From: Candidatus Zipacnadia bacterium
GTDB lineage: Bacteria; Armatimonadota; Zipacnadia; Zipacnadales; UBA5352
Assembly (NCBI GenBank): GCA_029820295.1
Contig: JALGVA010000054.1
Location: forward strand, 1-35,746
DNA length: 35,746 bases
Direction: 5' to 3'
This document shows positions 2,706 through 34,362 of the stretch, one piece after another. Each line of letters starts with the position of its first letter. Within the stretch, counting starts at the first letter, position 1. The translations under genes were made by a program, and so were the position numbers. Below the pieces are notes generated by a model that saw nothing but the letters and a program-made list of their open reading frames with translations, ran no database searches and was not told where the DNA came from.

Positions 2706-5700
2706 CTACCCGCCGACCGTCAGCGTCACCGTCGCCTGCTCGCCCGAGATGACATCGCGCGCGGTGATGGTCCACGCGCCCTCCGGATCGTTGGCGGCCA
2801 GCGGCAGCACGAAGCTGGCGCGGCCGGCGGCGGTGGTCAGGTTGCGCGCGTACCAGTAACGGTCCTCCGCGCTCTCTCCCGGCGCCTGCACCTCGACCCG
2901 GAGCACATGCCCCTCGGGCAGACCGCCCTCGGCCTGCAACGACAGCGCGAACTCCAGCGCCTCCCCCGGCTGCGCCGTCTGCGGGCCCTGCATCGCCAGC
3001 CCGGTCACGCGCCCGGGCAGCAGCGCGTAGAGCTGCGCCACGCCGCGCAGGGCCTGGCCTTCGATGCGCTCGACCTCGCCCAGATACGCGCCCTGACGAA
3101 CGTCGTAGACATGCCGCGCCTCCGGCAGCACCAGCGCATACGGCAGCACGTCATCGCGGTCGATGGCGCCCGAGGTAATCGAGCGCAGCACGCCGATCAG
3201 CTCGACATCGCCCACGAGCTGGCGTGAGGTCTCGAGCTGCGGCGCGAGGTCACCCGCCTCGATGCGGAAGGCGGGCGCCACGCCCGCCCGGTCGAACAGG
3301 CCGCTCATGAGCTGCCGGATCGGCCGCGTGACGGCCTCGGCGGACTGCGTCTCCTCCTGGGTCTCGCCTGCGACGCCGGTGGCGCGCACCTGCATGTAGT
3401 TGCTGAACGAGCAGTTGAGGAAGACCGCGGTGCCCTCACCCACGTCGCGCGCGATCAGCGCGGGCGCGCCGTCGATGCTGCCCGCGGCATGGCCATCGAC
3501 GACCTCCAGGTCCGCGCAGCCGGACGCCACCGGGACGCGGTCGAGGCCGAGATCGGCGTCGGCACTGACGGCCAGCGTCGCGTGCGCCAGCTCGGGCGGA
3601 TCCAGCGGCTGGCGGATGCCGAACAGGTCGTCGAGCATGGCGCGGGCGTGGCCGTGGTCGTCGCGCACGCCGCAGTAGCTGTCGGCGATGACCGTGCCGC
3701 CCGCCTCGACGAACTCGCGGATGGCGGCGGCCTCGGCCTCGCTGATCGCCGAGGACCACGGGAGGATGAGCACCCGGTAGTTGCTCAGCTCACCCGCCTG
3801 CATCTGGTCCTCGTGGATGAAGTCGAACTGCAGGTGCAGTTGCTGGATGATCCGGCCCACGTTGGTCACGTTGGTCTGCCAGTTGCGGAGCTGGTTGCCG
3901 GGCTCGAACAGCCCGGTGGCGGTCGCGGCGTGTACGCTCGGCGGCGAGTAGTGGATGGCGATGCCATCGTCGACGTACTCGCCGGCGATCAGCAGCCGGC
4001 CGATGCCGCGCTTGAGTTCCTGCACCTCGGGGAAGAACCACTCGGCGTGATGCGCCAGGCTGCCGTCGGGCCGCACCAGCGGGCAGTTGAGCGTGTTCGA
4101 GACCAGCGTGTAGTAGTTGATGCCGCTGGCGCCATGCAGCAGCAGATCCCAGGGCGCGTAGCGGGCGCGCTGCTCGTTGTTGTCCTTGTAGTCATAGCCC
4201 AGGAAGGTCGAGTAGAAGGTCCCGGGGAGCATGAACGAGCGCTGCAGCTCGCGCTGTACGCCTCCGTAACCCGAGAGGTGCGTCAGTGCTTCCTGCATGA
4301 GCTGCCACCAGTCGTGGCCCGAGTACGAGTTCGGCCGCGGGGTGCCGGAGATGCCCACGCGCGCCTCGGGGATCACGGCCTCGATCAGCCCGCGCAGCCA
4401 GGTGTGGTAGTCGGTGAACAGCCACTCCATGTAGCGCCGGTGGTCGAGCCACTGGCCCAGGTTCTCGCGCCCCTCGACATCGGAGAGCGTGCACGGCGCC
4501 ACGTCGTCCCAGGTCGCGAAGTCGGTGCCCCAGCTTGCGTTGAGGTCGGCGACGGTGTCGAAGCGCTGCTGCAGCCAGCGCCGGAACTCGGCCAGGCAGG
4601 TGGGTGAGGTGCAGTAGTCGCGCCGGCCGAGCGTGCTCTCGTCGCCCAGCGACCACTCTTCGACGCCGAAACGCCGCACCTCCGCGGCCATGTTCGTGAC
4701 GCGCTCGGCGACCTGCGCGCGATACTCGGGGTCGGTCAGGCAGGGCACGCGCACCAGCGAGTCGTCGGTGTTCTTGGGCACCACGCGCTCGACGTTCTCC
4801 GGGCCGTGGCGCATGTTGGCGTAGCACGCGTTCTCGGCGCGCCACGCGCCCGGCAGTGACACGTAGGTGTCCACGCCCATCTTCTCGAGCATGCGCAGGC
4901 CCCAGTTGGCGATCGGTTGGAAGTCCCAGGCGTACCAGGCGCAGAAGATCAGGTCGTCACGGTCCTCGGGCGTGGCGATGAAGGCGCGATCGAGGCGCTT
5001 CTCCAGCACCTCCTCGCCGCGCACCAGCTCGGTGTGCAGATCGGCCACCAGCGTCAGCGCATCGGGTGCGGGCATCGACAGCGCGAGCGCGCCCGCCGCG
5101 GGAACGGGGATCTCCTGCGTCGGGCCGAGCTGCCGGCCGTAGGTGTCCACCAGGGTCGCGCGCAGCGTCAGGCCCTGCCGATCCCCCGCGATGTTGACCA
5201 TCGCCTCCACCGCCTCGCCGTGCGCGAAGACCTCTTCAAGCATCTCGACGCTCTCGATGAGCGCATCGCGCTCGACTACGTACGACTCGACCGCGAAGTC
5301 CACCACCGCGCCATCGGCGTCGCGCAGCCACGACGTGATCGTGTTGCGGCCGTTGAGCTGGCACCGATCCTGCTCCGCGCCCAGCAGCCCCTCGGCGGCG
5401 GCGGCGGTCACGCGCGCCTGCTCGTCGAACTGCCGGTCGCGCCAGACGCGCTCGATGGTTGCGCCTGCGGGCGCGGCGCCGGGATCGCGCTGCGCCGCCC
5501 ACAGCAGCAGCCTGGCGAAGGCCGCGTGGGCGATCTCGCCCGGGCCCATGCCGTCGTCATCGATGTCCTCGAGGCGCAGGTTGGGCAGCATCGAGTGCTC
5601 GGGGCGCGTGAACTCGCCCCAGCGCACCCGCGCCACCCGGCCCTGACCGTAGGTGCCCAGGTGGAAGTGCGCCTCGCGCGGCGGCCGGTAGTCGGGCAGC

Positions 5701-7220
5701 GCATCCATGGCGATGCCGTCGAGGATGCCCTGGTCCCCGGGCAGCGGGCTCTCCTCGAAGATGTCCGCGATCGGATCGAGCCAGCCCGGCTGAATGCTCA
5801 CGCACACCAGGCCCATGCCCGCGCGCACACGCGCCCGGACCTTCTCCAGCAGCTCCGCGGGCATGGCCGCCCAGCGGAAGCCCGCGACCACCATCACCTC
5901 CGCCTCGGGCAGCGTCCGCTCGATCTGCTCCTGCATGAGCTGGCCCAGCTCGGTGTCGCGATAGAACGAGAAGTGCTGCACCGGCTCGTAGTCGAGGTCC
6001 ACGCGCTGCGCGACCTCGCACACGTCGCGCATGTCGCCCGAGTAGCACACCATGATCGCGCGCACCGGCCCGCTCGCCAGCGGCTTCGCCCACTCGATGT
6101 GCGGGCTCTCGGGGAAGTGCCCCGGCCGGTAGCTGTCGGGGGTGATCCCGTACTGCGCGAAGGCCATCTCGGTGCGGCTGACCGGCGGCGAGGCGAAGGT
6201 CACGGCGTCCGGGTCGTGGTCGCCGGCGTAGATCTCCAGCTCATCGGCGAAGACCGTCGAGCCCGCCTTGTCGAGCACGATCATGACGTAGCGCCCGCGC
6301 GTGTTCAGGTCGTCGGCGAGGAAGCGGTGAGTGTACCAGTTGGTGCCGTCCTGGCGCAGGCCCGCGGGCGTGAGCTGCGCGACCTGGTGGAAGGTCTCGC
6401 CATCATCGCTGACCAGATAGGTGACGGTCTGCGGGAACCTGACTCCCGCGCGCCCGCCGCCGGGGCAGTTGATCATGATGCCGTCGATGGCCCGCACCTC
6501 GCCCAGGTCCACAATGATCTGCGGCGAGTACAGGTACCAGCCGACGGTCGAGAGCTGGGTCCAGAAGTAGCCGACGGTGTACTCGCCGTCGGTGAGCTGC
6601 GTGAGGTCGCCGGGGTCGGTGCAGTACTGGTAGCTGGGGGGCGGGGAGAGCGTGTAGGGCCTGCCGAGGGCGATGTTGTCGCGCTCCTCGCCGGTCTCGG
6701 CCTCGGTCAGGGTGGCGCGCACCTCGTCGGCCGGGCCCACCAGCAGGTCGTCGAACCAGGCGGCGCCGGTGGCGGCGCGCAGCGACAGCTCCACGGTCGC
6801 CTGATTGACGCCGCCGGGGTTGAAGGCCAGCCGCACGCGCCGCCAGCCCACGGTCCCGGTCAGCGGCTCGGTCTGCGCGACCAGGGTGTCGTCGGGGCCG
6901 AGCACGCGGATGCGGGCGCCCTCGCCGGCCACGTCCTCCAGCCGCACCCACGCCAGCAGCAGATACTCGCGGGAGCCGGCGCCGATCGCCTGGCGGGCGG
7001 TCGAGGTCGCCGCCTGGTCGTGGCTCATGCGCAGGCCCATGGCCCCCGCATAGAACTGCGCGTCGTCGAGCGAGACTGCGCCGGACAGCTCCCACGCGAC
7101 CGGCGCCCCGGCCTCGATCTCCTCGAAGCCCGGATTGGCGACCAGGTTCGGCGGCTCCTGGGCGATGGCCCAGGCCAACAGTGTGGCCGACGCGATCGTA
7201 ACAAGCATGATGCGGCGCAT
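2706..7220 (-). CDS. Large secreted GH42-like glycoside hydrolase with carbohydrate-binding modules
   Basis: This 1504-aa protein has a signal peptide (1-20, cleavage after AIA). A CBM4/9-like jelly roll follows (NLVANPGFEE, about 24-165). A discoidin/F5-8C-like module spans about 180-335 and starts NIALGRPYT. A flavodoxin-like segment with ThuA/amidotransferase character lies at about 380-550. A GH42-like TIM barrel starts near 750. The barrel shows WSLGDES near residue 860, whose Glu sits 9 residues before a Cys, matching the spacing between the GH42 acid/base Glu and the first zinc Cys. It also has the family phrase LNASWGTDFATWDD. A trimerisation-like domain at about 1150-1185 (AIREFVEAGGTVIAD) and a C-terminal beta-sandwich complete it. 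GGAGGA lies 6 nt upstream of the start. GH42 enzymes are mostly beta-galactosidases, but here GDE replaces the usual NE, so specificity is open. Confidence 0.7.
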   Translation of the reverse strand: MRRIMLVTIASATLLAWAIAQEPPNLVANPGFEEIEAGAPVAWELSGAVSLDDAQFYAGAMGLRMSHDQAATSTARQAIGAGSREYLLLAWVRLEDVAGEGARIRVLGPDDTLVAQTEPLTGTVGWRRVRLAFNPGGVNQATVELSLRAATGAAWFDDLLVGPADEVRATLTEAETGEERDNIALGRPYTLSPPPSYQYCTDPGDLTQLTDGEYTVGYFWTQLSTVGWYLYSPQIIVDLGEVRAIDGIMINCPGGGRAGVRFPQTVTYLVSDDGETFHQVAQLTPAGLRQDGTNWYTHRFLADDLNTRGRYVMIVLDKAGSTVFADELEIYAGDHDPDAVTFASPPVSRTEMAFAQYGITPDSYRPGHFPESPHIEWAKPLASGPVRAIMVCYSGDMRDVCEVAQRVDLDYEPVQHFSFYRDTELGQLMQEQIERTLPEAEVMVVAGFRWAAMPAELLEKVRARVRAGMGLVCVSIQPGWLDPIADIFEESPLPGDQGILDGIAMDALPDYRPPREAHFHLGTYGQGRVARVRWGEFTRPEHSMLPNLRLEDIDDDGMGPGEIAHAAFARLLLWAAQRDPGAAPAGATIERVWRDRQFDEQARVTAAAAEGLLGAEQDRCQLNGRNTITSWLRDADGAVVDFAVESYVVERDALIESVEMLEEVFAHGEAVEAMVNIAGDRQGLTLRATLVDTYGRQLGPTQEIPVPAAGALALSMPAPDALTLVADLHTELVRGEEVLEKRLDRAFIATPEDRDDLIFCAWYAWDFQPIANWGLRMLEKMGVDTYVSLPGAWRAENACYANMRHGPENVERVVPKNTDDSLVRVPCLTDPEYRAQVAERVTNMAAEVRRFGVEEWSLGDESTLGRRDYCTSPTCLAEFRRWLQQRFDTVADLNASWGTDFATWDDVAPCTLSDVEGRENLGQWLDHRRYMEWLFTDYHTWLRGLIEAVIPEARVGISGTPRPNSYSGHDWWQLMQEALTHLSGYGGVQRELQRSFMLPGTFYSTFLGYDYKDNNEQRARYAPWDLLLHGASGINYYTLVSNTLNCPLVRPDGSLAHHAEWFFPEVQELKRGIGRLLIAGEYVDDGIAIHYSPPSVHAATATGLFEPGNQLRNWQTNVTNVGRIIQQLHLQFDFIHEDQMQAGELSNYRVLILPWSSAISEAEAAAIREFVEAGGTVIADSYCGVRDDHGHARAMLDDLFGIRQPLDPPELAHATLAVSADADLGLDRVPVASGCADLEVVDGHAAGSIDGAPALIARDVGEGTAVFLNCSFSNYMQVRATGVAGETQEETQSAEAVTRPIRQLMSGLFDRAGVAPAFRIEAGDLAPQLETSRQLVGDVELIGVLRSITSGAIDRDDVLPYALVLPEARHVYDVRQGAYLGEVERIEGQALRGVAQLYALLPGRVTGLAMQGPQTAQPGEALEFALSLQAEGGLPEGHVLRVEVQAPGESAEDRYWYARNLTTAAGRASFVLPLAANDPEGAWTITARDVISGEQATVTLTVGG

Positions 7221-7255: not shown

Positions 7256-10162
7256 CTACAGCTCCGCCAACTCCGTCAGCGCGTCCAGGATCTCGATGCG
7301 TACCCGGTCCTGCACCGCGCGGTCCTTGACCTCGTCCCAGCGGTAGTTCGGCTGCGTGTCCATCGCCATCACGCGATCGACCGCGGTCGTGAGCAGCTCG
7401 CGCGCGGGCGCCAGGCGCTCGGCGGGTGCGCCGTCGGCCTCCAGCTCGTCAATCCGGTCGCGCAGGATGGTCAGGTACTCGTAGTCCTCGATGCCCTCGC
7501 GGATGGCCTCCATGTACTTGGCGGGCGTGACCGAGGTGTCGTCGATGTACGTGGGGCAGTAGGGCCCGTTGCCCGGCGCCGGGTACTCATTCCAGCACGA
7601 CACTCGCCCGTTGTCGCCGAAGGCCCAGAAGTTCGAGCCGATCCCGCCGATGCCGAAGGCGTGCCACTCCTGCACCAGGTAGTAGCTGAACGGGTCAAAG
7701 GTGCGCGCGGGACCGTCGGCGCTGTAGAGCCAGATCTGCTTGCCCTGCCCGCGCATCTCCTCGATCAGCTCGGTGTACCACTCGCCACGCGTGAGGAACT
7801 GGTGACGATAGGGGCAGATGGCGTCGATGGCGTCGAACATCTCCAGCAGCGCATCCTCGATGTTCCCCGGCTGCGGGTCCTCCCAGGTCACGATCCCCGG
7901 CGCGGCGGCCTCGATGGCGTTGGCCCAGGTGGTGATGGTCCGGTACTGCTCGCGGTCGTGCGGCTCATCAACGAGAAGTATGCCGAGCTGGTCGGGGCGC
8001 AGGCCCAGCTCGACCATGTGATCGGCCCAGAAGCGGGCCCAGCCGCCGACCTTGTTGGCGAACACCTGTGTGCCCATCTGCGTTCCATCGAAGCTGTCGC
8101 CGACCGCCGCGAAGACCATGTACATCTTCGCGTCCGGCCAGAGGCGCACCCACGCATCGAAGCGGTCCGTGCTCGGGGCCTCGATGATGTTGCCCTCGTC
8201 GTCGAAGCGGCCGGACTTGATCGACGAGCCGCCCGCCCATGGCGCGTTCACGTAGTGCTCCTGCAGGTGCCGCAACACCGCGTCGAAGTTCTCCGGCGTC
8301 AGGCCGTAGGTTTCCTGCGAGTCCGTGTAGGTCCAGCCACCCACCAGCAGCGTAGTCTCATCCGGGAAGCGCAGCGGGTAGATCCGCAGTCGCACGGGTA
8401 CCTGGGCCGAGAAGCCGGTCGCCGAGGATAGCTCGACGGCGCCCTCGTGCAGGCCAGGCTCGATCTCCGGGCGGTTGATCGCGACCCAGACCTGCCGCGT
8501 CATGCCGCGCGGCACGTCGATCTCCCAGGCCCCGCCGGACATCTCCGCCTCGGGCAGCGCCGCCGCGACCGAGGTGAACCAGCGGGTGCCCACGTGCTCG
8601 ACCTGGTGCACCGAGATCCACTCGGGATTGTCGCCGCCGGGCAGGCCGGTGATGCGCAGGCGCAGGTGCTCATCGTGGTCTGAGGCGTTGGTGATGTTGA
8701 ACACATCCGCCCGGTACTCGTTGTTCATCATCGCGACCTCGACCGCCGCCGGTGCGTCATCCACCGGCTCCTCCGATGGAGCCAGCGGCTCCCAACGGTG
8801 CTGGTCCCAGAGGCGCAGCCCAGGCTTGCCCTGCGCGCGCCACACGTCCGCCTGCAGCCGGAAGATCTCCACCTCGAGCGTGGTCATCGGCAGGATGGCG
8901 ATGAAGCCGTCCATGTCGATGGGCGCCATCTCGGCGATGGCGGTCTCGAGGTCGTCGGCGCGCGCGGACAGCTCCGCGCGGGCGCCGGGGGGCAGCTCGG
9001 CAAGGTCCTCGCGCACGGCCGCGAGATCGCGCTCGAACTGCGCGGCGATCAGCCGATTGATGCGCGCCTGCTCGAGGTGCGTCTGCACGTCCTCGAGCGG
9101 CTCGGTGTCGTAGGCCTGCGCGAGCCACGCGTCGTCGCCGCGGAAGACCTCGATTTCGTCGCAGAACAGGTAGTGCTCCGTCGGCTCGATGACGAGCTGC
9201 AGGTAGCGACCGTGGGTGCGGAGGTCGCCGGTGAAGATGGGGCGCACGGCGTACTCGCCGAACGGGGGCAGCGTGTGGTCGGCGAGGTACATCCTCACGA
9301 GGTCGCCGAGGGGATGCCACAGGTTGCCGTCGAGGCTCACGTACATGAGGATGCTGGCCGGCCAATGGACGCCCGCGACTCCCGCCGCGGTGTTGAACGA
9401 CACGCCGCGGATGGGCCGGTCCTCGCCGAGGTCGATGGTCACGTACTTCAGGTTCGTGCCGCTCCAGCCGACGGTCGTCGGCCGCGTCCAGAAGTGCCCT
9501 TGGCTGTACTCGCCATCGGTGAGCTGCGTCACGTCGCCTTCATCCCGGGTGTAACCGTAGGCCGGCGCCGGCGTCATCGTGTACGGCCGGCCGAGCGCCA
9601 TGTTCTCGCCCAGGTCCGGCAGCGTCATGTCGGCCCCATCCTCGACCTGCGCCAGCGTCACCTCGGCGACCGCGACCTCGCCCGGACCGGCGACCTCGCC
9701 GCGCACGTGAGCCGGGTCGGCCCAGATCTGCACCTCAACATCGGCGCTGAGCGTGCGGAAGCTGGCGGCGATGCGCTGCCATTCGGTCTCAGGCCGCGCG
9801 GCCACGATAGTGAGTTCGGCCTGCTCGGGCAGGTCGATCACGCGAATGGTCGGCAGCAGCGCGCCATCGCTGCGCACCAGCGCCTCGATGCGGTACTCGG
9901 CGTCGGGTGTCAGAAAGTCGGGCTGCTGGCGCACCGCGCCGTCGGCGCGGGCGTCGGCCTGCCAGCGCATCACGGCGCCGCCCTGCGGGCCGTCGGTCGG
10001 GACACGCTGCCAGGCGCTGCCCGCGGGCACACCCCAGCTCGCCGGCACAGTCGCGCCGACCGCGTCGGCCTCGGCGAAGTCCGGGTTGACGATGGCGTCG
10101 GGCGCGGCGCCCGCCGGCAGGCAGATGCAGGCGACGATGAATGCGATCGGCAGAGAGCGCAT
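7256..10162 (-). CDS. Secreted DUF4091/GH123-like hydrolase with discoidin-like module
   Basis: A 968-aa protein. The open frame extends further upstream, but the start at 10162 is favoured by AGGAGG 7 nt before it and a signal peptide directly after it (1-19). A short CBM-like jelly roll (AIVNPDFAEAD) comes first. A discoidin-like module follows at about 186-340 (NMALGRPYT), closely related to the one in the next gene. A helical, possibly coiled-coil, linker lies at about 350-410. The C-terminal half resembles DUF4091/GH123: LLVDEPHD near residue 729 gives the adjacent Asp-Glu pair used by GH123 for substrate-assisted cleavage of N-acetylgalactosaminides, and REGIEDYEYL near 884 is typical of DUF4091. 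It is the first gene of the minus-strand operon, 35 bp before the GH42-like gene. Activity on N-acetylhexosamine is inferred, not shown. Confidence 0.72.
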   Translation of the reverse strand: MRSLPIAFIVACICLPAGAAPDAIVNPDFAEADAVGATVPASWGVPAGSAWQRVPTDGPQGGAVMRWQADARADGAVRQQPDFLTPDAEYRIEALVRSDGALLPTIRVIDLPEQAELTIVAARPETEWQRIAASFRTLSADVEVQIWADPAHVRGEVAGPGEVAVAEVTLAQVEDGADMTLPDLGENMALGRPYTMTPAPAYGYTRDEGDVTQLTDGEYSQGHFWTRPTTVGWSGTNLKYVTIDLGEDRPIRGVSFNTAAGVAGVHWPASILMYVSLDGNLWHPLGDLVRMYLADHTLPPFGEYAVRPIFTGDLRTHGRYLQLVIEPTEHYLFCDEIEVFRGDDAWLAQAYDTEPLEDVQTHLEQARINRLIAAQFERDLAAVREDLAELPPGARAELSARADDLETAIAEMAPIDMDGFIAILPMTTLEVEIFRLQADVWRAQGKPGLRLWDQHRWEPLAPSEEPVDDAPAAVEVAMMNNEYRADVFNITNASDHDEHLRLRITGLPGGDNPEWISVHQVEHVGTRWFTSVAAALPEAEMSGGAWEIDVPRGMTRQVWVAINRPEIEPGLHEGAVELSSATGFSAQVPVRLRIYPLRFPDETTLLVGGWTYTDSQETYGLTPENFDAVLRHLQEHYVNAPWAGGSSIKSGRFDDEGNIIEAPSTDRFDAWVRLWPDAKMYMVFAAVGDSFDGTQMGTQVFANKVGGWARFWADHMVELGLRPDQLGILLVDEPHDREQYRTITTWANAIEAAAPGIVTWEDPQPGNIEDALLEMFDAIDAICPYRHQFLTRGEWYTELIEEMRGQGKQIWLYSADGPARTFDPFSYYLVQEWHAFGIGGIGSNFWAFGDNGRVSCWNEYPAPGNGPYCPTYIDDTSVTPAKYMEAIREGIEDYEYLTILRDRIDELEADGAPAERLAPARELLTTAVDRVMAMDTQPNYRWDEVKDRAVQDRVRIEILDALTELAEL

Positions 10163-10318: not shown

Positions 10319-13300
10319 ATGCCGACAAGGATCGCCGCCGCCGTCGCGCTGCTGACGCTGAGCGCCGCCTGCGCGTGGGCGCAGCCGACCGAAGTCACGC
10401 TCGTGAACCCCTCGTTCGAGGAGGGCGCAGACGAGGGCGGCGTACCCGCCGGGTGGACCCTCTACGGCAGCGTGGGGGAAGACAGGGCCGTAGGCATTGC
10501 CGAGCTGGATGACGGGCACGCGCTGCTGCTCTCCGACGCCGACCCGAGCGCCGAGATCGGCGTCTTCCAGGACTTCCCGGTCGCGGGCGGCTTGGCCTAC
10601 TGCGTGACCGCGTCGGTGCGCCGCGTCGGCGACGCCTCGCCGGGCGGCGCCAACCTGCAGCTCCGCTTCCTCCCCGGAGACTACTACGAGCAGACCGGAC
10701 TGGCGGCGGAGTCGGCGGATGGCTTCAACGACATCACGCTCTACGCGGTCGCGCCCGAGAACGCGACCATCGGCCGCATCTACCTCTACACGCACGCCGA
10801 GCCGACGCCGAAGGTGATGGTGAACACCGTGACTGTCGAAGCAGGAGTGGAGATGCCGGTCTTCCCTGACGGCCCCGCGCCCGATCCGGTCCCGCCGCAG
10901 TATGACGCGCTCAAGGACCTGCACCTGACCACGGTGCTGGTCGAGGGCGGGGAGCCGGCCGCGGTCATCGTCCGGCCCGCATCCGGGGAGCACGACGCCG
11001 AGGCCGAGGCGATCCAGCAGGCCATCGCCGACGTGACCGGCGTGACCGTGCCCGTGGTCACCGATGCCGACCCGGCCGCTGCGCTCCCGCCGCAGACCAA
11101 CCTGATCGTGCTGGGCAGCCGCGACTGGAACGCGACCATCGAGGGCCTCTACGAGGGCTTCTTCACGCTGGTGGACGCCAAGTACCCCGGCCCGGGCGGC
11201 TGGGTGGTGCGCTCAATCCACAACCCGTTCGGCAACGGGCGCAACGTCATCCTCGCCGGCGCGAGCGAGGCGGCTCAGGTCGCTCCCGCGACCGATGCGC
11301 TCATCGCACACCTGCGCGAGGCCGGCGGCCGTCGGGGCGAGCTGAGCGTGGGCTGGCTGCGCGAAATCAGGCTCAGCGATCAGTACCAGGTGCCACGCGC
11401 CCCCGAGGAGATAGAGATCTGGGAGGCGTCGGGCAGCTACGGCTCGTCCGGCTACTTCGGCTGGAACATCATCAGCAAGCACATGGCCGCCTACTACGAG
11501 ACCGGCGACGAGTATCACGCGCGCGAGTTCCTGCGCCTGGCCTTCCCCGACGACGAGGCCATCGCCGAGATCGAGCGGCTGGATGGCGAGCGCATCGAGA
11601 ACAAGCACGACCCGCTGGCCGGGCCCTATCACTACTCCGCGCACATGATGGTCATGTTCTGGGACCTGATCGAGGAGGACCCGTTCTTCACCGACGAGCA
11701 GCGGCTGCAGATCACGAACGCCCTCGCGCGCCAGCTCACCCACCGCGCGGTCGAGGGTGTCTACGGAGACACCGCGCCGCCGCCGCATGTGGGCAACCGC
11801 CACGGCGACTGGTCGGCGATGTCGCTCTACGCGCTGGCGCGCTACTTCGCGCGCGACTACGACGATCCGGTCTGGGACGCCGCGCTGCGCTCGAGCGAGA
11901 TCTACTTCTCGGGCATCGAGAACAGCGCGTGGCTGGCGGGCAACAACGACCACCTGTTCTGGTACACCAGCTACTACGACCCGATCCTCGACTACATGCA
12001 CCTGTCGGGCTACCGCGGTGGGATGGACAACCTCAAGCAGGCGCTGAGGACCCAGGACATCCTGTTCACCGGGACTGAGGACGACTGGGGGCTGCGCGCC
12101 TCGTCGCTGAACTTCCTGCACCGCGCCGCGGCCATCACCGGCGACGGGCGCTTCGTGTTCTACCGCAACCGCACGGGCCTCGACACCGATGTCTTCCGGC
12201 TCGGCCAGTCGTGGTGGCCCACGCACATCCCGCCGCGCGCGCCGACCGAGCTTGTGGGCACGTGGACGCTGCAGCCGATGCCCGAGCCGATGTGGGCCGC
12301 GCGCGGCTCAGGTATCCCGCTGCAGCAGCAGTTCCTGTGGGGCACCTGGCGTAACACCCTCGACGACCGCGGCGACCTGGTGATGATCAAGGGTCACAAC
12401 GGCGGCGGGCGCCTGCCCTACCACACCTTCTCGATTATGGAGCAGCGCCTCGCCGACCGCACGCTGCTCAAGGGCTACCGCACGCAGGTGCTGACCTCCG
12501 CCGATGGCATGGTCGAGCCGATCGTGGCCATGGATTCGGGGCTGCTCGACCACGGCACGGTGGGCGAGACGCTCTACGCGGTTGGCGACGTGCCCGCGAT
12601 GGCCTTCGCCGACTGGCGGCGCAGCTTCATCCAGCGCACAGGGCGCTACGCGCTCTTCGTCGATGACCTGGGCTTCCGCACCGACAGCGACAACGTGAAG
12701 GTCGAGACCGAGTGGAACACCGTCGGCGGCGCGTGGAACGCGCGGCGCAACGTGCTGGCGATCCAGGGCACCGGCCCGGCCGCGGAGCGTGAGGGGTGGA
12801 TCGAGCGGCGCGCACTGGACGCGGACGTGATCTGCGGCCCGGGCACGCCCGAGGAGCTGCTCTCGAACCTGGACAGCATCGACATCGTGCTGCTCAAGGC
12901 CGCTGAGCCCGGCACGTGGATGGAGCTGCCCTTCACGCTCGACGAGCCGGTGACCGGGCAAGTCTACGCCGACCTGCTCGATTACACCGACCGCGGTATC
13001 CTGCGCATCTGGCTCGACGGTGAGCCGATCGTCGATGGCGTCAATCACTATGCGCCGGCGGCGACGCGCTCGCTGGCAGACCTGGGCGAGCACACGCTGG
13101 CGGCGGGCGAGCACACCATGCGCGTCGAGGTCAGCGCGGGCCGGCCCGAGAGCGAGCGCATGTACGTCGGCCTGGTGGGCGTCGCCATCCGACCCGAGGG
13201 CGTCGCGGATGCGCGGTCGCAGGTCTTCGAGCTGCACCCGTCGGACGTGCTGCAGGCCGAGGGCGGTGGCATCGTGGTCATGCGGTGGCTGGGCGCCACG

Positions 13301-14953
13301 CGCGAGGGCCAGCACCGCATCTTCTTCCACCTGCTGGCGCACCGCGACAGCGCCGCGGCCGACGCACTCGCGTGCTACCGCATCGCCGACAATGCGGCGG
13401 CTCTCGCGCTGCCCGAGGCGGCGGTCGCCTTCACCGGCGAGTGGGAGGGCGTGACGGCCGCTGTGGGCGTGCTCGCATCGGATCACCTGTTCGCACGCGG
13501 CCTGACCGCCTCACCCCTGGCGAGCGCGACGGCACCCGTGACCATCGACTGGGACTTCAGCGCCGGCACGCTGGCGGCATCGGCCGACGAGGCGGCCGTT
13601 CTGACGGTCAGGACCGCCGATGGCGAGCGCGAAATCGCCATCGCCCCGGGCGAGACCGTGTCCGCTGATGCGATGCCCGACGCGAACGTACTCGCCCACC
13701 TGGGCCAGCAGCTCTCCGCCCATCTCGCCGAGGGCCGTGCGCGGCGCGATCAGCAGCGTGCCGCCGCCGCCGAGCCCGCCACGGTCACGGCGCCGGAGAT
13801 CGCGCCCGAGATGACCGCCGAGATCGGCGGCGCGCCGGTGGCGGCGATCACCATCCCGCGCGAGGGCGGCGACCTGACCGCCCTCGCCGAGGGCACGACC
13901 GTGCACCTGCTCGCGGCCGACGGCTCCGACGCGGGCACGATGCAGACCGACGGCCCGATCCGCGTCATGGCCTGGTGGCCCGCACATGAACTGCTGCTGG
14001 TCGGCTGCGAGGACGAGCGGGTCATCGCCTTCGGCCTCGACGGCGAGCGGCGCTGGAGCTTCGTGTCGGAGATGGACCAGGCGGTGTGGGAGGCGGGCAA
14101 GCAGTACTGGTTCAAGTCGGCCTACCCGGGCATCCACGGCCTCGCCACCGGCACCTTCATCGGCGGCGAGAGCCAGGCGTTCGTGGGCAGCGCATGCACG
14201 CTCGAGATTCTCGACGGCGACGGGCAACTCGTCCGCCGCATGCCCGTCTTCTGGGGCAACGGCTGGAAGTTCCGGCTCATTGACGGGCCGGGCGATGCGC
14301 GCCGGCTGCTGGTGGCGCGCTGGCCCAACGGCACCGACACGCTGGCCGTGATCAACTCCGAGACGCTGAGTCAGACGAAGAGCTTCTACGGCGTGCCCGC
14401 GGGCCACACCATGGTCGGTGGCTGGACGCAGCAGAACCGCACCGGGATCATCTACGAGGACATGGACGGCGACGGGACGCGCGAGCTGGTGACGGCCACC
14501 AACGGCATCTGGAACCGCGTGACCGTGTTCAGCGACGAGGGCGCGCCGCTCTTCAACGCGCAGTTCGGCCCCGGTGAGAGCAATCGGCCCTACTCGACCA
14601 TGCGCGATTTGGCCGTGGCCGACCTCGATGGCGATGGCGACCGCGAGATCCTCGTGGCCATCGCCGAGGGGCTCATCGTTACGCTCGACCACGAGTGTCA
14701 GAAGGTCTGGGCCACGCGCCTGCCCTCGCCGCCGACACAGCTCGAGGCGATCACGCCCGCCGGCGCGGAGCTGCCCGTGATCCTCGCCGGCTGCGAGGAC
14801 GGGACGGTGGTGCGGCTGAACGGGGCGGGCGAGATCGTGGCGCTGGGCAGCGCCGGCGGCCGCGTCGCGACGACGACCGTCGCCGACACGCCGGCCGGCC
14901 CGCTCGCGGTCATGGCGACCTCCGAGGGCGCGGTCAGCGGCTGGCGGATGTAG
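10319..14953 (+). CDS. Very large secreted lyase-like protein with C-terminal beta-propeller
   Basis: A 1544-aa protein with a signal peptide (1-21, cleavage after AWA). A CBM4/9-like module (VNPSFEEG, about 26-165) is followed by a segment at about 193-345 that resembles the N-terminal domain of GH67-type enzymes (LIVLGSRDWN, VILAGASEA). Residues about 375-630 are helix-rich with many Trp, Tyr and His (HVGNRHGDWSAMS, GNNDHLFWYTSYYD), like an (alpha/alpha) toroid lyase. A beta-sandwich and a PA14/CBM-like insert follow at about 660-960. The last 380 residues look like a beta-propeller carrying two FG-GAP-like acidic loops, DMDGDGTRE near 1380 and DLDGDGDRE near 1435. The ribosome-binding site is weak, but the start is supported by the signal peptide. 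It ends 6 bp before a converging gene. Uronate polysaccharide cleavage is a guess from the fold. Confidence 0.6.
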   Translation: MPTRIAAAVALLTLSAACAWAQPTEVTLVNPSFEEGADEGGVPAGWTLYGSVGEDRAVGIAELDDGHALLLSDADPSAEIGVFQDFPVAGGLAYCVTASVRRVGDASPGGANLQLRFLPGDYYEQTGLAAESADGFNDITLYAVAPENATIGRIYLYTHAEPTPKVMVNTVTVEAGVEMPVFPDGPAPDPVPPQYDALKDLHLTTVLVEGGEPAAVIVRPASGEHDAEAEAIQQAIADVTGVTVPVVTDADPAAALPPQTNLIVLGSRDWNATIEGLYEGFFTLVDAKYPGPGGWVVRSIHNPFGNGRNVILAGASEAAQVAPATDALIAHLREAGGRRGELSVGWLREIRLSDQYQVPRAPEEIEIWEASGSYGSSGYFGWNIISKHMAAYYETGDEYHAREFLRLAFPDDEAIAEIERLDGERIENKHDPLAGPYHYSAHMMVMFWDLIEEDPFFTDEQRLQITNALARQLTHRAVEGVYGDTAPPPHVGNRHGDWSAMSLYALARYFARDYDDPVWDAALRSSEIYFSGIENSAWLAGNNDHLFWYTSYYDPILDYMHLSGYRGGMDNLKQALRTQDILFTGTEDDWGLRASSLNFLHRAAAITGDGRFVFYRNRTGLDTDVFRLGQSWWPTHIPPRAPTELVGTWTLQPMPEPMWAARGSGIPLQQQFLWGTWRNTLDDRGDLVMIKGHNGGGRLPYHTFSIMEQRLADRTLLKGYRTQVLTSADGMVEPIVAMDSGLLDHGTVGETLYAVGDVPAMAFADWRRSFIQRTGRYALFVDDLGFRTDSDNVKVETEWNTVGGAWNARRNVLAIQGTGPAAEREGWIERRALDADVICGPGTPEELLSNLDSIDIVLLKAAEPGTWMELPFTLDEPVTGQVYADLLDYTDRGILRIWLDGEPIVDGVNHYAPAATRSLADLGEHTLAAGEHTMRVEVSAGRPESERMYVGLVGVAIRPEGVADARSQVFELHPSDVLQAEGGGIVVMRWLGATREGQHRIFFHLLAHRDSAAADALACYRIADNAAALALPEAAVAFTGEWEGVTAAVGVLASDHLFARGLTASPLASATAPVTIDWDFSAGTLAASADEAAVLTVRTADGEREIAIAPGETVSADAMPDANVLAHLGQQLSAHLAEGRARRDQQRAAAAEPATVTAPEIAPEMTAEIGGAPVAAITIPREGGDLTALAEGTTVHLLAADGSDAGTMQTDGPIRVMAWWPAHELLLVGCEDERVIAFGLDGERRWSFVSEMDQAVWEAGKQYWFKSAYPGIHGLATGTFIGGESQAFVGSACTLEILDGDGQLVRRMPVFWGNGWKFRLIDGPGDARRLLVARWPNGTDTLAVINSETLSQTKSFYGVPAGHTMVGGWTQQNRTGIIYEDMDGDGTRELVTATNGIWNRVTVFSDEGAPLFNAQFGPGESNRPYSTMRDLAVADLDGDGDREILVAIAEGLIVTLDHECQKVWATRLPSPPTQLEAITPAGAELPVILAGCEDGTVVRLNGAGEIVALGSAGGRVATTTVADTPAGPLAVMATSEGAVSGWRM

Positions 14954-14959: not shown

Positions 14960-16387
14960 CTACGCCCGCTCGAACATGGGGTTCACGTGCCGCCCGAGGA
15001 CTACGCCCGGGCCGTAGTCATCCGCGGTGAATGCCGGCTTCAGCGTCCAGCACTGGCGCCGGAACGGGTCGAGAATCCCCGCCGGGTGGTACTGCTGTCC
15101 GTGGCAGCGCCACTCGCGCGCGCGCCGCACATTGGCGATCGCCTCCGGCACGCCCGGGATGGCCTCGACCGACTCCTGCCGCCGATCCGCCGGGATCAGC
15201 TCCCGCCCCAGCGCCGCGCAGGCCAGCACGATCAGCGCCTGCTCGGGCGTGATCGAGCCGCACGCCTCGCTCAGCTCCGGCGGCAGGTAGCCCGAGGCGT
15301 TCCCCGCCGCCACGATCTCCTCCGCGACGGCTGCGGGCGCCACTGCCTCCAGGCGCGCCGCCGGCCGCCCCTCGCGCTGCGCCGGGCCCATCACGTGGGG
15401 CACCTCGTAGCTCTCGGCGGGCGCCGACACACGCTTCGCGAGCAGGAACAGCAGCTCCGCCGCGCTCAGCTCGTCGGTGAAGATCGGCCCACCGCGCTCC
15501 ATGACCGCCTCCGCGCCGCGCAGTACCACTTCATCCGAGACGCGCACCGGCCGTGCGCCAAACCGCTCATCCAGCCCCGCGACATCGGTCCACTCGATGC
15601 CCGTCTGCGCGAGTAGCGCGCGCACCAGGCGCTCGAAGTTCTCGAGAATCAGCGGGATGGAGACACCGTCGATCATCGCAGGCGGCCGCCACTCGTGCGG
15701 CGGCGGCGCCGCGCCACGCCCGAAGTTGATAGCGTCGGGGAAGCGCTCCATCACGGTGATGACCGGGTGGCAGCCGAACATGGCCGTAAAGTCGTACTCG
15801 CGCACGCGCCCGGTCAGATAGCCCTCGACCTTCGCGAGCTGCTCCTCGAACCCGGGCGTGTCGCGGTAGAACTGGTCGAAGGCGAAGCCGGCCTGATAGC
15901 CGCCTATGAGCAGGTTCTGGCAGAACCAGACGATGTTCGTGCCGGGCAGGCGGAAGGGCGAGTACAGGAACGGCTTGCCCAGCCGCCCGGCGGCGAAGAC
16001 GATCTGGGCGGCGAAGGTGCCGCCGTGCTGAGTCAGGCCCGAGCACTTGCCGAAGATGCGCTGCAGCGCCTGGAAGCCGGGCAGCTCGCGGAAGAGCACG
16101 CGCTCGACGCCCTCGAACCAGCCGAGCTGTGAAACCTCCTCGGCGGTGGTCGGGTGCACCGAGCCGCGGTCGAAATGCAGGCTGACGTCGTGGCGGCGGA
16201 TGGCGTCGATAACCGCGCGCTGGCCGTGGCGCTCCATGAAGCGCGCCTTCTCGCCGTGGATGTGGAAGCAGCCGGTGAGACCGTGGCGGGCCATGACCCG
16301 GGCGAGCTGCCCCGGCAGCCGATGAACCGGATGATCCGGCGGCGAGAAGAAGTCCTCGGTGTCGAAGTAGATCAGCGCGTACATCAT
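14960..16387 (-). CDS. Polysaccharide deacetylase-like protein
   Basis: A 475-aa protein that opens MMYALIYFDTEDFFSPP, resembling the first acidic motif of deacetylase-like TIM barrels. It continues with HGLTGCFHIHGEKARFMERHG and DVSLHFDRGSVHPTT, which offer His and Asp ligands where NodB-type proteins bind metal, although the spacing (H-x6-H) differs from the standard H-x3-H. The frame is open far upstream, but GGAGG lies 5 nt before the first ATG (16387) and 8 nt before the second (16384), so the start is one of these two. No signal peptide is visible, suggesting a cytoplasmic protein. It is divergent from glmM and converges on the lyase-like gene. Enzymatic activity is uncertain; assignment is to a fold, not to a reaction. 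Confidence 0.6.
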   Translation of the reverse strand: MMYALIYFDTEDFFSPPDHPVHRLPGQLARVMARHGLTGCFHIHGEKARFMERHGQRAVIDAIRRHDVSLHFDRGSVHPTTAEEVSQLGWFEGVERVLFRELPGFQALQRIFGKCSGLTQHGGTFAAQIVFAAGRLGKPFLYSPFRLPGTNIVWFCQNLLIGGYQAGFAFDQFYRDTPGFEEQLAKVEGYLTGRVREYDFTAMFGCHPVITVMERFPDAINFGRGAAPPPHEWRPPAMIDGVSIPLILENFERLVRALLAQTGIEWTDVAGLDERFGARPVRVSDEVVLRGAEAVMERGGPIFTDELSAAELLFLLAKRVSAPAESYEVPHVMGPAQREGRPAARLEAVAPAAVAEEIVAAGNASGYLPPELSEACGSITPEQALIVLACAALGRELIPADRRQESVEAIPGVPEAIANVRRAREWRCHGQQYHPAGILDPFRRQCWTLKPAFTADDYGPGVVLGRHVNPMFERA

Positions 16388-16438
16388 GGGCACCTCCCGG
16401 CGTCGCCCGTGGCTTGGACGGTATTCGAGCGCCGACCG

Positions 16439-16466
16439 CCCCGGCCCTCCCGGGAGGAAGCCGGGG
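16439..16466. repeat. Inverted repeat in the deacetylase/glmM divergent region
   Basis: CCCCGGC (16439-16445) pairs with GCCGGGG (16460-16466), and between them lies the 12-bp palindrome CCTCCCGGGAGG (16446-16457), with only an AA bulge at 16458-16459. It sits 52 bp from the deacetylase start and 62 bp from the glmM start, so it could be an operator or an RNA hairpin in the leader of either gene. Confidence 0.5.
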
Positions 16467-16528
16467 ACCGCAGGGCGAACCATCACCTGACGGATCTCCC
16501 CGTGCCGCATGGTGCCGTGAGGTGAGTG

Positions 16529-17869
16529 ATGCCGGCGTACTCCCATAGACTCTTCGGAACCGACGGCGTGCGTGGCCGGGCGGATGACGAGATCACACCC
16601 CACCTGGCGGCGCAGGTCGGTGGAGCCTTCGCCACGCTGCTGCGCGAGCGCAGCGACGCGCCCACGGTGCTGCTCGCCCGCGACACGCGGGTCTCGAGCC
16701 CGGCGCTCGCCGAGGCAGTGGGACACGCGCTCGCCGGTTGCGGAGTGCGGGTGGCGGACCTGGGCGTGTTCCCGACCGGCGGCCTGTGCCTGCTGGTGCG
16801 CGCGCGCGGCGCCGATGGCGGCGTGATCGTGTCGGCCTCGCACAACCCGCCGGAGAGCAACGGCATCAAGCTGGTGGACCGCGGCGGGCTCAAGCTCCCC
16901 CTCGAGGACCAGCGGCGCATCGAGGCGCTCATCTGCGACGAGGGCCTCGGGCCGCCGGGCACGCGCGACGGCGTGAGCGCGGAGGACGGCAGTGAAGAGT
17001 ACCTCGCGCTGGTGCTCGACGGCCTGCCGCCCGACTTCCTGCGCGGCATGCGCGTGGTGCTCGACTGCGCCCACGGCTCGGCGTGGCGACTCGCGCCCGA
17101 GGCCTTCCGGCGCGCCGGCGCCACCGTCGAGCCGCTCAACTGCGACGGCGACGGCGCGCGCATCAACGTCGCCTGTGGTTCCACCGCGCCGGCGGCGCTC
17201 GCGGCGGCGGTGGCCACCTCGGGCGCGGACCTGGGCGTGGCCTTCGACGGCGACGCCGACCGCGCCATCTTCGCCGATCACCTCGGCCACGTCATCACCG
17301 GCGATGGCATGAAGTACGTGCTCGCGGTGGATCTGCAGGAGCGAGGGCTGCTGACACCACCGGTGGTAGTGGGCACGGTGATGAACAACTTCGGCCTCGA
17401 GCGCGCCCTCATCGGGCGCGGCATCCGCCTGGTGCGCACACCGGTGGGCGACCGGCACGTCGTCGCACAGATGCGCGAGAGCGGCGCGCTCATCGGCGGC
17501 GAGCAGTCCGGGCACATCATCTTCGCCGAGACGCTCATCGGCGACGGCACGTACACGGCGCTGCGGGTGTGCGAGGTGGTGGCGCGCAGCGGGCGGCCGC
17601 TGGCGGAGCTGGCCGCGCCGGTGCGCACGATCCCGCAACTGCTGGTCAATGTGCGCGTGCAGGACCGCACGGCGTGGGAGAAGTGCGCGAAGGTGCGGGC
17701 GGAGATCGCCCGCTGGGAGCAGCGGCTGCAGGGGTGCGGGCGCGTGCTGGTGCGCTCCTCCGGCACCGAGCCGCTGGTGCGCATCATGGTCGAGGCCGAG
17801 AGCGACGAGCTGGCGCGCGAGGCCAGTCACACGCTGGCCGTCGTCATACGCCGGACATGCGCCGAGTAG
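16529..17869 (+). CDS. glmM: Phosphoglucosamine mutase
   Basis: GlmM interconverts glucosamine-6-phosphate and glucosamine-1-phosphate, feeding UDP-GlcNAc and peptidoglycan synthesis in the cytoplasm. The 446-aa length is normal. All family motifs are present: LFGTDGVRG at the N-terminus, the phosphoserine loop SASHNPPESNGIK, the metal site FDGDADRA, the sugar-recognition loop GGEQSGHII (the GEQSGH form typical of GlmM rather than phosphomannomutase), and the phosphate loop RSSGTEPLVRIMVE near the C-terminus. The ATG at 16529 is preferred over the in-frame GTG at 16526 because GAGGTGA (16519-16525) directly abuts the GTG. The gene stands alone between enzyme genes of other transcription units. 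It may be the housekeeping copy, or may also process amino sugars released by the locus; the sequence does not decide. Confidence 0.92.
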   Translation: MPAYSHRLFGTDGVRGRADDEITPHLAAQVGGAFATLLRERSDAPTVLLARDTRVSSPALAEAVGHALAGCGVRVADLGVFPTGGLCLLVRARGADGGVIVSASHNPPESNGIKLVDRGGLKLPLEDQRRIEALICDEGLGPPGTRDGVSAEDGSEEYLALVLDGLPPDFLRGMRVVLDCAHGSAWRLAPEAFRRAGATVEPLNCDGDGARINVACGSTAPAALAAAVATSGADLGVAFDGDADRAIFADHLGHVITGDGMKYVLAVDLQERGLLTPPVVVGTVMNNFGLERALIGRGIRLVRTPVGDRHVVAQMRESGALIGGEQSGHIIFAETLIGDGTYTALRVCEVVARSGRPLAELAAPVRTIPQLLVNVRVQDRTAWEKCAKVRAEIARWEQRLQGCGRVLVRSSGTEPLVRIMVEAESDELAREASHTLAVVIRRTCAE

Positions 17870-17917
17870 GCCGTGCCCGGAAGCGATGCCTGCCGGGCGG
17901 TGCCCCGGCGCACGCGA

Positions 17918-17938
17918 AGGCGGGCGTAGCGGCCGCCT
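17918..17938. terminator. Possible hairpin between converging glmM and PL26-like genes
   Basis: AGGCGG (17918-17923) pairs with CCGCCT (17933-17938) around a 9-nt loop in the 70-bp gap between two converging stop codons. No T tract follows on either strand, so function as a terminator is uncertain. Confidence 0.3.
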
Positions 17939-17939
17939 G

Positions 17940-20900
17940 CTATTCCCGCACCAGCGTCACGAAATCCAGCGCCAGGCCGTCGCCAAGGTTGGTCATGCGC
18001 AGCGTGTGTTCGCCGGCGCTCAGCGGCAGCAGCACGTCGTTGCCGTCGGCATCCTGCAGCGCCAGGTAGTGCCAGTCGCCGGGGTTGCCGCCGTAGCCGC
18101 CCGTGCGGGCGAAGGCCACCTCTTGCGCGCACTCGACCGGCACCGCCCCGTCGATCTCCACCCGCCGCCGCGAGTTCTCGCTGTCGGTCCCGTAGCGGAA
18201 GATCATGCGGTAGCGCGCATCCTCGGGCACCGTGAATTTCCACTCGATCCAGTGCCCGATGTCGGCGTGCCACTTGGTCACCGCGGTGCCCCAGACGGCG
18301 TGTCGGTCGGCCACAACCTCCGCCAGCCCCTCGCCCTGCTCGGCGAAGTCCTCGGCCTGGATGACGATCATGCGCTCGGCGGGAGTTTCGTTCATCCAGT
18401 CGGGCTTGACGAAGGGCGCCAGCGCCTGCTGCTCGGGCTCCTCGAGGGTCAGTCCCACCGCCGCCAGGTCGGCGAGCAGCCGCGGGGCGCAGCGGTAGTA
18501 CATCGAGAAGCCCTTGCCGTAGCTGCTCCCCCCCGCCCCCAGCGCCAGACCGTGCGTGAGCGGGTCGAGGAAGCGCTCATCGCCGGTCCAGCGGTAGGCG
18601 CGCGCGATGCCCTCAGCCATCAGCGGCGTCACGCCCGAGCCGTAGCGCATGTTCGGGCACGAGGTGTATTTGAAGCCGTGGGTCTCGGTGGAGTACATGT
18701 CATCCACGAGGAAGCGGGCGCCGCGGATGATGCACTCCTTGACCGCCGGCTCCTGGGTGACGTCGTGGTAGTAGGTCAGGCCGGTGAGCAGGATGGCGAT
18801 CATGAAGTTGGCGTTGCCCCGGTGGCGCGGCTCGCAGCGGCAGTGACCGGGCACCATCATGCGCGTCCAGCCGCCTACCTGGTACTCGCGCCCGGGCTGC
18901 TTCTGGTAGTCGGGCAGCTCGCGCGGCTCGACGTCCTGGGTCTCGAGCACGCGATCGACCACGATACGCGCGGCGTTGAGGTAGTAGGGATCGTTGGTCG
19001 CGGCCAGGGCCGAGGCGAGCATGATCAGATGCCAGCCGGGCTCGCGCGCGCTGAGCCAGTCGTAGGGCCGCGACAGCTCCTTGTCGGTGAAGTAGTCGAC
19101 CACCGCCATGCCGGTCTGCAGCGAGCGCGGGTCGCCGGTCAGGAAGTAGTGGTCGAAGTGCCCCTCGGTCCAGGCGTGGGTGACCGAGCCGCCTGCGCTG
19201 GGGAAGCCGAGGGTCCCGGGCACCGACTCGGTGTAGTAGCCGCCCACGTGGCCCATCTGATGGATCCAGACGAGGCCGATACCGTGGGGGTCAGGCGCCC
19301 AGTGCACGGTGTCGATGTCGCGGTTGTGGGTCTCGGTCACGTCGCCCAGCTCGAAGGCATCCAGGTTGCCCGAGCGGATGTACTCGAGGAAGAACGCGTG
19401 CTGGGTGTCGTACTCGATGTTGCCCCAGTTGGCCCCGCGCTCGCCGTACCAGTCGCCGTAGTTCATCAGGCCGAAATCGTGCTGGCGCTCGCGCGCGGCG
19501 ATGTAGTTGTCGATGTTGCGGTCGATGGCTTCCTCGTAGGCCGCGAAGCGTTCCTCATCGCGCGGCGCCACGTTGTAGAAGGCCATGCTGCCGCAGTACC
19601 ACTCGGGCTCGGCGGTGAGCATCAGCGGCTGCTGGAAGACCTCGGTGCGGTCGGCCATCTGCGCGTCGCCGCTGAAGTCCAGCAGCAGCTCGTGCGTCTT
19701 GGCCATGCCCTGCTTGAAGCGATAGTGGCCGTCGAGCAGGTAGAAGTAGAGGTGATGGCCCTCCTGCTCGAAGGGAAACTCGTCGTAGAGCCCGGCCTCG
19801 AAGTCGGGCGCCAGGTCCACGCGCAGGCCCTCGTCGGTGACCTCGAAGCCCTTGGGGTAGTTCTGCCAGCAATCGCGCACGGTCACCGCCAGCGAGCCGT
19901 CTTGGGCCAGGGCGCCCCCGGTGAACCGGCCCTCGACGCCGTCGCCATCGTTGACCACGTATTCCCGATCGAAGCGCTGCCACGTCGAGTCGCCGGGCCC
20001 CAGCGCCAGGACTTCGCCGCCCTCGAGCGTGGCGTCCCAGGTCTGCGCGGCCGCGGGCACGAGGACGCTCAGGCTCTCGATGTTGGTGTAGCGGTCCTCG
20101 CGGTCGTTGACGAAGGTGTGGTAGACCTGCACGAAGGGCCGGTCGCGCCAGGCCACGATGCGCTGCTCGATGCGGAAGGACTCGCCGCCGTCCTCGGCGG
20201 TCAGGTTGCCCACCGTCTTCACCACCGCGCGCACCGGCCCGGACTCCTCGATGGTGATCTCGGCATCGGCGAGGGCGCTGGAGAACTCCGTCCCACCCTC
20301 GCCCACCAGCCGCGTCACGCATGGCCCGTTCGGCCCCACGAGCTGGCCGTGCTCGTCGATGCTGAGCAGCACGCCGCCCGTGTCGATGGTCACGCGCCCG
20401 TCGCGCTCGACTGCGATGGGAGTGTAGCGCGCCGTGGCCGCCATGCTGTCGACGTCGCGTCCGAACTCCAGCGTGTACTGCGTGCTCCCGCCCGCAGCCA
20501 CGTCCGCCAGCGTAGTCACCAGCACCCACTTCAGGCTGCCATCGGGCCAGGTGCCCAGTGGCTTGAACTGCGCCGGCACCTCACCCTCAGGGCCCATCAG
20601 CCGCAGATCGCCCTCATTGCCCAGCGCCCCCTGCGGGAAGGGCACGCCGCTGGTGACCGGCCAGTTGATCGCGTCCGCGTCATGCGGGTTGCGCACGGTC
20701 AGCGGGACCTGGGTTACGCCCCCACGGGTGGGCGGGGGGTCGATGCCGTCGGCGGTGAAGGTCACGTCCGGGCCGTAGTACTCGCTGCCGTCGGGCCGGA
20801 TGCCCACGCCCCGCCCGTGGTAGGTCGTCCCGGGCTCGAGGCCCGTCAGGTAGGCACGGTGCACCAGCCGGTAGCAGTCCTCGGTCGCGACCTCTCCGTA

Positions 20901-24235: not shown

Positions 24236-24236
24236 G

Positions 24237-24252: not shown

Positions 24253-24290
24253 GCGGCCGGGGACAGCACGCACAGACGGAGGGCCCGACC

Positions 24291-34351: not shown

Positions 34352-34362
34352 CGGCACGGATT

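Follow-up and report, generated by a model that had tools for sequence, protein, structure and literature searches.

In a stretch of 35,746 nucleotides from a Candidatus Zipacnadia bacterium (contig JALGVA010000054.1, analysed at its full length and referred to here as the window), one gene encodes a multi-modular protein, P0001, that carries a toroid-sandwich core and a C-terminal β-propeller in one chain. P0001 belongs to an unannotated, expanded toroid-lyase/propeller family with many copies in this genome, and what is new is this family together with a clade in it, that of P0001, in which the catalytic and metal-binding residues of toroid lyases are replaced by others that are strictly conserved. 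Our tentative reading is that P0001 diverged from the toroid lyases and has an active site built anew, which, judged from its sequence, would work without a metal on an acidic polysaccharide.

Gene, modules and neighbourhood

The open reading frame starts with ATG and has no internal stops. Relatives of P0001 align with it at 44-70% identity, mostly over the full length, and it is thus not a chance frame; the named ones come from Candidatus Zipacnadia, candidate division WS1 and Armatimonadetes UBA5352 MAGs. The alignment A1 holds 21 rows of relatives at 44-70% identity (three truncated at the ends), and the module borders in Table 1 were drawn from A1, from single-module profiles on paralogs and from a model of residues 345-1544. 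In Pfam searches P0001 matches propeller families only, the toroid, sandwich and N-terminal modules receiving no name, while NCBIfam gives no family and a PDB sequence search with P0001 alone gives no credible relative (one chance match, E 0.48). The protein is probably a large multi-modular carbohydrate-active protein, and presumably a secreted one.

Table 1. Features of the P0001 gene and its neighbours in the window
Feature	Coordinates	Strand	Basis
Whole gene, 1544 aa	10319..14953	+	ORF translation; relatives
Signal-peptide-like N-terminus, aa 1-21, AWA/Q	10319..10381	+	by eye
N-terminal CBM, aa 22-176	10382..10846	+	CBM_4_9 in 3/21 rows
GH67-N-like domain, aa 190-344, label uncertain	10886..11350	+	found again in distant paralogs; 14 copies aligned
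(α/α) toroid, aa 345-655	11351..12283	+	paralog homology; model matches to toroid lyases; family profile vs 3nfv
R494-H495 at the Asn-His position of toroid lyases	11798..11803	+	23/23 clade rows
L546...Y549: L546 at the catalytic Tyr column, Y549 three further	11954..11965	+	both 23/23 clade rows
β-sandwich, first part, aa 656-835	12284..12823	+	paralog profiles; model; PF07940 in 9/37 family rows
R698-L-P700-Y-H702 replacing HxHxD (catalytic His, metal ligands)	12410..12424	+	R, P, H in 23/23 clade rows
R721 at the last metal-ligand His column; metal-Asp loop before it deleted	12479..12481	+	alignment
Inserted CBM-like domain, aa ~840-965	12836..13213	+	profile match to MiXBM 7ehg
β-sandwich, second part, aa 966-1110	13214..13648	+	strands in model; 5/145 columns invariant
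Helical linker, aa 1111-1155	13649..13783	+	helix 778-805 of model
C-terminal β-propeller, aa ~1160-1544, probably 8 blades	13796..14950	+	Pfam, structure matches; blade number by analogy
Ca-type loop DMDGDGTRE, aa 1381-1389	14459..14485	+	D1381, D1385 invariant in 21-row A1
Ca-type loop DLDGDGDRE, aa 1435-1443	14621..14647	+	D1435, D1439 invariant in 21-row A1
Polysaccharide deacetylase	242-997	+	Pfam
DUF4962 match, below cut-off	978-2684	-	Pfam
GH42-type protein	2706-7220	-	Pfam
Divergent upstream neighbour, signal-like start, weak F5/8 match below cut-off	7256-10162	-	
NodB-type polysaccharide deacetylase-like, from Met at 16387	14960-16387	-	by eye; Pfam: no family for longer ORF
PcRGLX protein, above cut-off for 2/3 PcRGLX models; bacterial TSP3 repeat just below cut-off	17940-23507	-	
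BNR repeats	22335-23555	+	Pfam
GH42-type protein	24177-27941	+	Pfam
DUF6259/GHL15 protein	34472-35704	-	Pfam

The order proposed in the earlier note (CBM, GH67-N-like domain, helical core, β-sandwich, propeller) holds, the GH67-N-like part on weak evidence. The first module is matched by CBM_4_9 in three of 21 relatives (best E 1.9e-4), P0001 itself giving no match. For the second, a profile of 14 family copies returned 20 PDB matches, mostly chance, with weak matches to the xylan α-1,2-glucuronidases 7pug and 7pxq (E about 0.5), to 4zmh (E 0.036), which we take to be a GH115 enzyme, and to a hexosaminidase (E 0.95). The GH67-N model is absent from these matches and from the Pfam matches of the 14 members, which comprise S_layer_C in 3/14 (best E 3e-4) and GH20b in 1/14 (E 0.066). 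S_layer_C, outranking GH20b, gives the GH67-N-like label no support. Its matches might instead connect this domain with proteins of the cell surface; no cell-wall anchor was seen in P0001 by eye.

The sandwich is split by a second CBM-like domain that the earlier note did not mention. The A1 profile matches it to MiXBM (7ehg, which we take to be a xanthan-binding module) with E 0.0027, over columns corresponding to residues ~885-945, and the model has a pLDDT of 58-90 in this region (model residues 511-620).

The propeller is recognised by FG-GAP_3 (31.5 bits, cut-off 26.9) and Beta-prop_CGLA (PF25292, 31.3 bits, cut-off 26.8). Its model is most similar to WD40 proteins (best Z 31.1), the designed Cake8 (6tjg, Z 30.9 over 312 residues) and BamB (8orr, Z 29.6); the last two we take to be eight-bladed, and by analogy with these structures the P0001 propeller probably has eight blades. 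Both calcium-type loops listed in the earlier note are present, and the four Asp given for them in Table 1 are invariant in A1. That note had also suggested that the propeller could anchor the enzyme to the cell or the substrate, which is a guess. Propellers of the λ-carrageenase type have been proposed as catalytic, and the propeller of P0001 could in principle be the catalytic part with the toroid ancillary to it: PF25292 recurs in 19/21 A1 rows, and Y1263, W1264 and K1266, invariant in the clade, lie in a propeller loop that is not seen in nine aligned paralog propellers. However, the PF25292 match in P0001 covers 80 residues only, and the toroid is the most invariant domain of the protein (80/311 columns in the 18 full-length rows), making a catalytic propeller the least probable of the readings considered here.

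The neighbouring genes were compared at six named ortholog loci (L066-L071, E 1e-30). The divergent upstream gene, whose C-terminal half presumably resembles DUF4091/GH123, is kept in L066, L067 and L071, i.e. in three of the four loci with at least 5 kb of upstream sequence. The GH42 gene is kept in L067 and L071, the NodB-type gene in L067 (at 72%), and the PcRGLX gene, presumably for a rhamnogalacturonan exolyase, lies near the ortholog in three of six loci (L067, L070, L071), with no match in L066, L068 and L069 despite ~10 kb of downstream sequence. These neighbours point to an acidic, perhaps rhamnogalacturonan-like, polysaccharide. In L071, a distant paralog of the same family (15690-20528, +) lies ~1 kb downstream of the ortholog. 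An ORF of 1552 aa in the window (17649-22307, +), considered as a second copy, was rejected, having no family match and running antisense to the PcRGLX ORF; it looks like a shadow of that long overlapping frame. The window further contains two URO-D (uroporphyrinogen-decarboxylase-like) matches near the glycan genes (27758-29065, +; 31637-34357, -) and two DUF1559 (SBP_bac_10) proteins (29157-29819, -, with an N-methylation motif; 29920-30669, -).

An expanded family with a probable toroid-lyase core

Profiles built from the P0001 clade find paralogs outside their building set, as in a frame on contig C217 of the same genome (toroid E 6e-16, core E 5e-19). With single-module profiles from A1, run on the open frames of paralogous contigs of this genome, seven contigs (C33, C217, C54, C199, C252, C258 and C207) show a GH67-N-like domain followed by the toroid and, C-terminally, the propeller. 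Two further frames, one on C274 and another on C217, match the GH67-N-like domain and the propeller; their toroid responds only to A3, a profile built from 13 toroid-sandwich domains to which these two frames contributed. The recurrence of the design in distant paralogs, and of the same layout in many genomes, rules out a one-off gene fusion or an assembly error.

The genome of the window contains at least 24 A3 matches (33 of 86 candidates scored). Among the 14 listed, which include P0001, a propeller is indicated in the same frame for 13, by FG-GAP_3 or by a propeller profile; the remaining one (on C7) has none, and its frame runs into the contig end. A3 matches occur in 34 of 46 genomes of the class and, with five candidates scored per genome, in 62 of 291 genomes of the phylum. 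A match to P0001 of at least 40% identity over more than 300 residues is present in 22 of 41 close genomes (in G032 over the N-terminal modules only), and these 22 probably hold the clade of P0001 itself. Among the titles that literature searches listed, none describes a toroid-lyase/propeller fusion, which is not proof of absence. The earlier note knew of no standard family with this module order. No single Pfam or NCBIfam family indeed covers the whole protein, Pfam naming its propeller end only, but the order is no peculiarity of P0001, recurring in a multi-copy family across the genome and the phylum.

The relationship of the core to toroid lyases was seen only once distant paralogs entered the profile. 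The 21-row A1 profile finds no lyase above noise in the PDB, its matches being designed propellers and the MiXBM module, with YesX among the weak ones (E 0.17, over the propeller). The profile of A4, consisting of 37 dereplicated family rows (six of the window clade and 31 others), finds as its best PDB matches the alginate lyases 3nfv (E 1.5e-4), 1hv6 (0.0059) and 4f13 (0.0063) and heparinase III 5jmd (0.014); seven of its 14 matches are lyases, and the other seven look like chance. The alignments with 3nfv and 1hv6 reach as far as the NNH motif of those lyases. At a permissive limit, PF07940 (Hepar_II_III_C) is found in nine of the 37 rows (best E 3.9e-4).

The structural models of the core are poor. 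The AlphaFold model of residues 345-1544 has a pLDDT of 55.9 overall and 31-51 over the toroid, and the structure matches given for it all cover the propeller (model residues 806-1200); a no-template model of residues 345-835 has a pLDDT of 38. The two models contain 12 and 13 helices, at low pLDDT, in the helical core (345-655). The first 12 structure matches of the shorter model (Z 9.6-7.1) are all toroid lyases or DS-epimerase 1, comprising PL33, the alginate lyase Atu3025, the PL35 GAGase VII, a chondroitinase, Dp0100 and DS-epimerase 1; members of PL33, PL15, PL35, PL39 and PL17 are represented, and 14-3-3 proteins come next, from Z 6.8. Values of Z below about 13 in helical models may mean a common arrangement only, so these ranks are supportive only. 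Taken together with the profiles, they make it likely that the core of P0001 is homologous to the heparinase II/III-like toroid lyase superfamily, the fold itself being unproven. The earlier note was right in describing a core that resembles toroid lyases and is joined to a propeller of the FG-GAP type.

A survey of Zipacnadia reports few kinds of recognised extracellular CAZymes (PMC10290634). The nearest named relatives of the window gene include Zipacnadia. With at least 24 matches in one genome, and with Pfam recognising hardly more than the propeller in the members scanned, the present family could help to explain polysaccharide use in these bacteria.

Replacement of the active site in the window clade

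In the PL35 enzyme GAGase II, N192 is the neutraliser and Y246 and H401 are acid and base, and activity is abolished or strongly reduced when H403, D405, D421 or H457, which surround the Mn, is mutated (PMC12088678). The 31 non-clade rows of A4 largely have the same residues at the matching columns: N in 24, H in 26, Y in 26, H/H/D of the HxHxD motif in 29/23/28, D in 27 and H in 29. All eight are present together in 18 of the 31 rows and the N/Y/H triad in 21, divergent rows that lack most canonical residues (L084, L115) being kept in these counts. The column spacing in these rows is 51-58 from N to Y and 155-181 from Y to H, compared with 54 and 155 in GAGase II.

The clade of P0001, examined in a test alignment of 23 rows, differs at nearly every one of these columns. 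In all 23 rows N is replaced by R494, the adjacent H495 is kept, Y is replaced by L546, and the H, H and D of HxHxD are replaced by R698, P700 and H702 (R698-L-P700-Y-H702 in P0001). The last metal-ligand His column is variable (R 13, H 5, L 2, Q 1, N 1, M 1). An Asn beside the His, the toroid Tyr, the sandwich His and a PL35-type metal site are all absent from P0001 at the aligned columns. Six of the seven alignable active-site positions are nonetheless invariant in 23/23 clade rows, against 76 of 491 columns overall (hypergeometric p 7.1e-5). With these positions invariant and the toroid the most invariant domain, the site appears to have been rebuilt and then fixed, and does not look decayed. 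The contrast of this clade with canonical paralogs in one genome, such as the 1356-aa frame on C54, is a natural experiment on the change of catalytic residues and metal use in toroid lyases. Outside the clade, a further paralog of the same genome (L084, frame 1223-5149 on C207) has also lost the canonical site, perhaps in an independent event: it reads RH, has H where the Tyr is expected and Y and G for the two His of HxH, and shows Q in the columns of both the metal Asp and the metal His.

In an unrooted tree of 42 rows, the 11 clade rows lie on one side of a single branch with support 100/100. This stem is very long (2.33 changes per column), and local misalignment in the clade is possible. 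If misalignment accounted for the apparent replacement, P0001 could be an ordinary metal-dependent toroid lyase, and lyase-like spacings do exist among other residues of the clade: R494 to Y549 is 55 residues and Y549 to H702 is 153, equal to the 153 residues from Y291 to H444 given for PL33 (PMC11848413). An ordinary metal-dependent lyase is very unlikely, since R698 lies, ungapped, 6 residues from G692, a position without variation across the 37 A4 rows, H495 anchors the register of the toroid, and no HxH is left near 698-704 in the clade.

A pseudo-enzyme is the least remote of the alternatives, although unlikely. Its cleft would bind a carboxylated or sulfated glycan through arginines and aromatics, and P0001 would be a glycan-binding protein serving active paralogs. 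The loss of Asn, Tyr, the sandwich His and the metal ligands at aligned positions fits this, as does the large share of binding modules in the remaining protein. On the other side, the toroid is the part that varies least, and a set of H, Y, R and D residues fit for acid-base chemistry is invariant in 23/23 rows, although the invariance of the site residues could likewise come from binding instead of catalysis.

Different chemistry on the same scaffold is less probable again: a glycoside hydrolase using D544, E424 and E427, or a C5-epimerase such as DS-epi1. Seven acidic residues (D411, D422, E424, E427, D544, D609 and D622) are invariant in 18 clade rows, and a hydrolase could use the kept D422, E424, E427 and D544; among the structure matches of the core model, DS-epi1 (6hzn) ranks seventh (Z 8.6) and a GH76 mannanase 30th (Z 6.3, at noise level). 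However, the paralogs carry a lyase site, and H495 is kept.

In the lyase reading that we tentatively favour, the toroid and sandwich would descend from metal-containing lyases of the heparinase-II/III-like type. With the metal ligands and the Asn/Tyr/His triad gone from the window clade, the invariant R494, H495, Y549, R698 and H702 would take their place in a metal-free β-elimination on an acidic (uronate) polysaccharide. The arginines may neutralise the carboxylate, with Tyr549 and either His495 or His702 as acid and base, while the two CBM-like modules and, putatively, the FG-GAP-type propeller would hold the polysaccharide chain. According to PMC12088678, the neutraliser in some toroid-lyase families is His, Arg or Glu, and a PL15 lyase has an Arg 3 residues past its His; by analogy with the latter, Arg is conceivable as the neutraliser in P0001. 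The PL33-like spacing from Y549 to H702 and the PcRGLX neighbour speak for this reading. Counting against a lyase are the change of every known toroid-lyase catalytic residue except the toroid His at aligned positions, the lack of a PcRGLX match in three of the six loci, and the poor quality of both core models, which leaves the spatial positions of the residues unfixed. Uronate lyase activity, for which the earlier note proposed a test, fits P0001 as ancestry, but the defining catalytic and metal-binding residues are missing from its clade.

A bolder version, which we regard as rather doubtful, would have the old site re-registered to give a lyase that cleaves polysaccharide without a metal, or another enzyme acting on uronates, in a large, unrecognised family that would be a main polysaccharide tool of uncultured Armatimonadota. 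Y549 lies three residues beyond the former Tyr column (546), and H702 four beyond the former His column (698). In this version the Tyr would have shifted by roughly a turn of helix and the base His by two same-face strand positions, with the Asn becoming Arg and the metal site being erased.

Comparison with known systems

A toroid followed by a sandwich, the order predicted for this family, is the layout of PL35 GAGases, PL21 heparinase II, PL39 Dp0100, PL33, PL15, PL17, PL12 and PL40. The 18 non-clade rows with a complete site have N, H, Y, HxHxD, D and H near the spacing of PL35/PL21-type lyases. In contrast to toroid PL lyases, the window clade shows R, L, R, P and H at those positions with the metal loop deleted, and the chain of P0001 is extended by a GH67-N-like domain, two modules of CBM type and the propeller at its C-terminus. 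P0001 is placed in no PL family, since the tested defining residues are not found in its sequence.

The best sequence-profile matches, the alginate lyases 3nfv and 1hv6 (the latter presumably of PL5 type), cover the toroid up to NNH, where P0001 has R in place of the N before His; to our knowledge, neither PL5-type alginate lyases nor 3nfv have a propeller. The likeness to MiXBM is confined to the inserted domain, which in P0001 lies between two parts of the toroid-associated sandwich. With Beta-prop_CGLA and FG-GAP propellers (PF25292, PF13517), above both of whose cut-offs it scores, the propeller of P0001 has the calcium-type loops in common, but unlike those propellers it sits C-terminal to a toroid-sandwich core.
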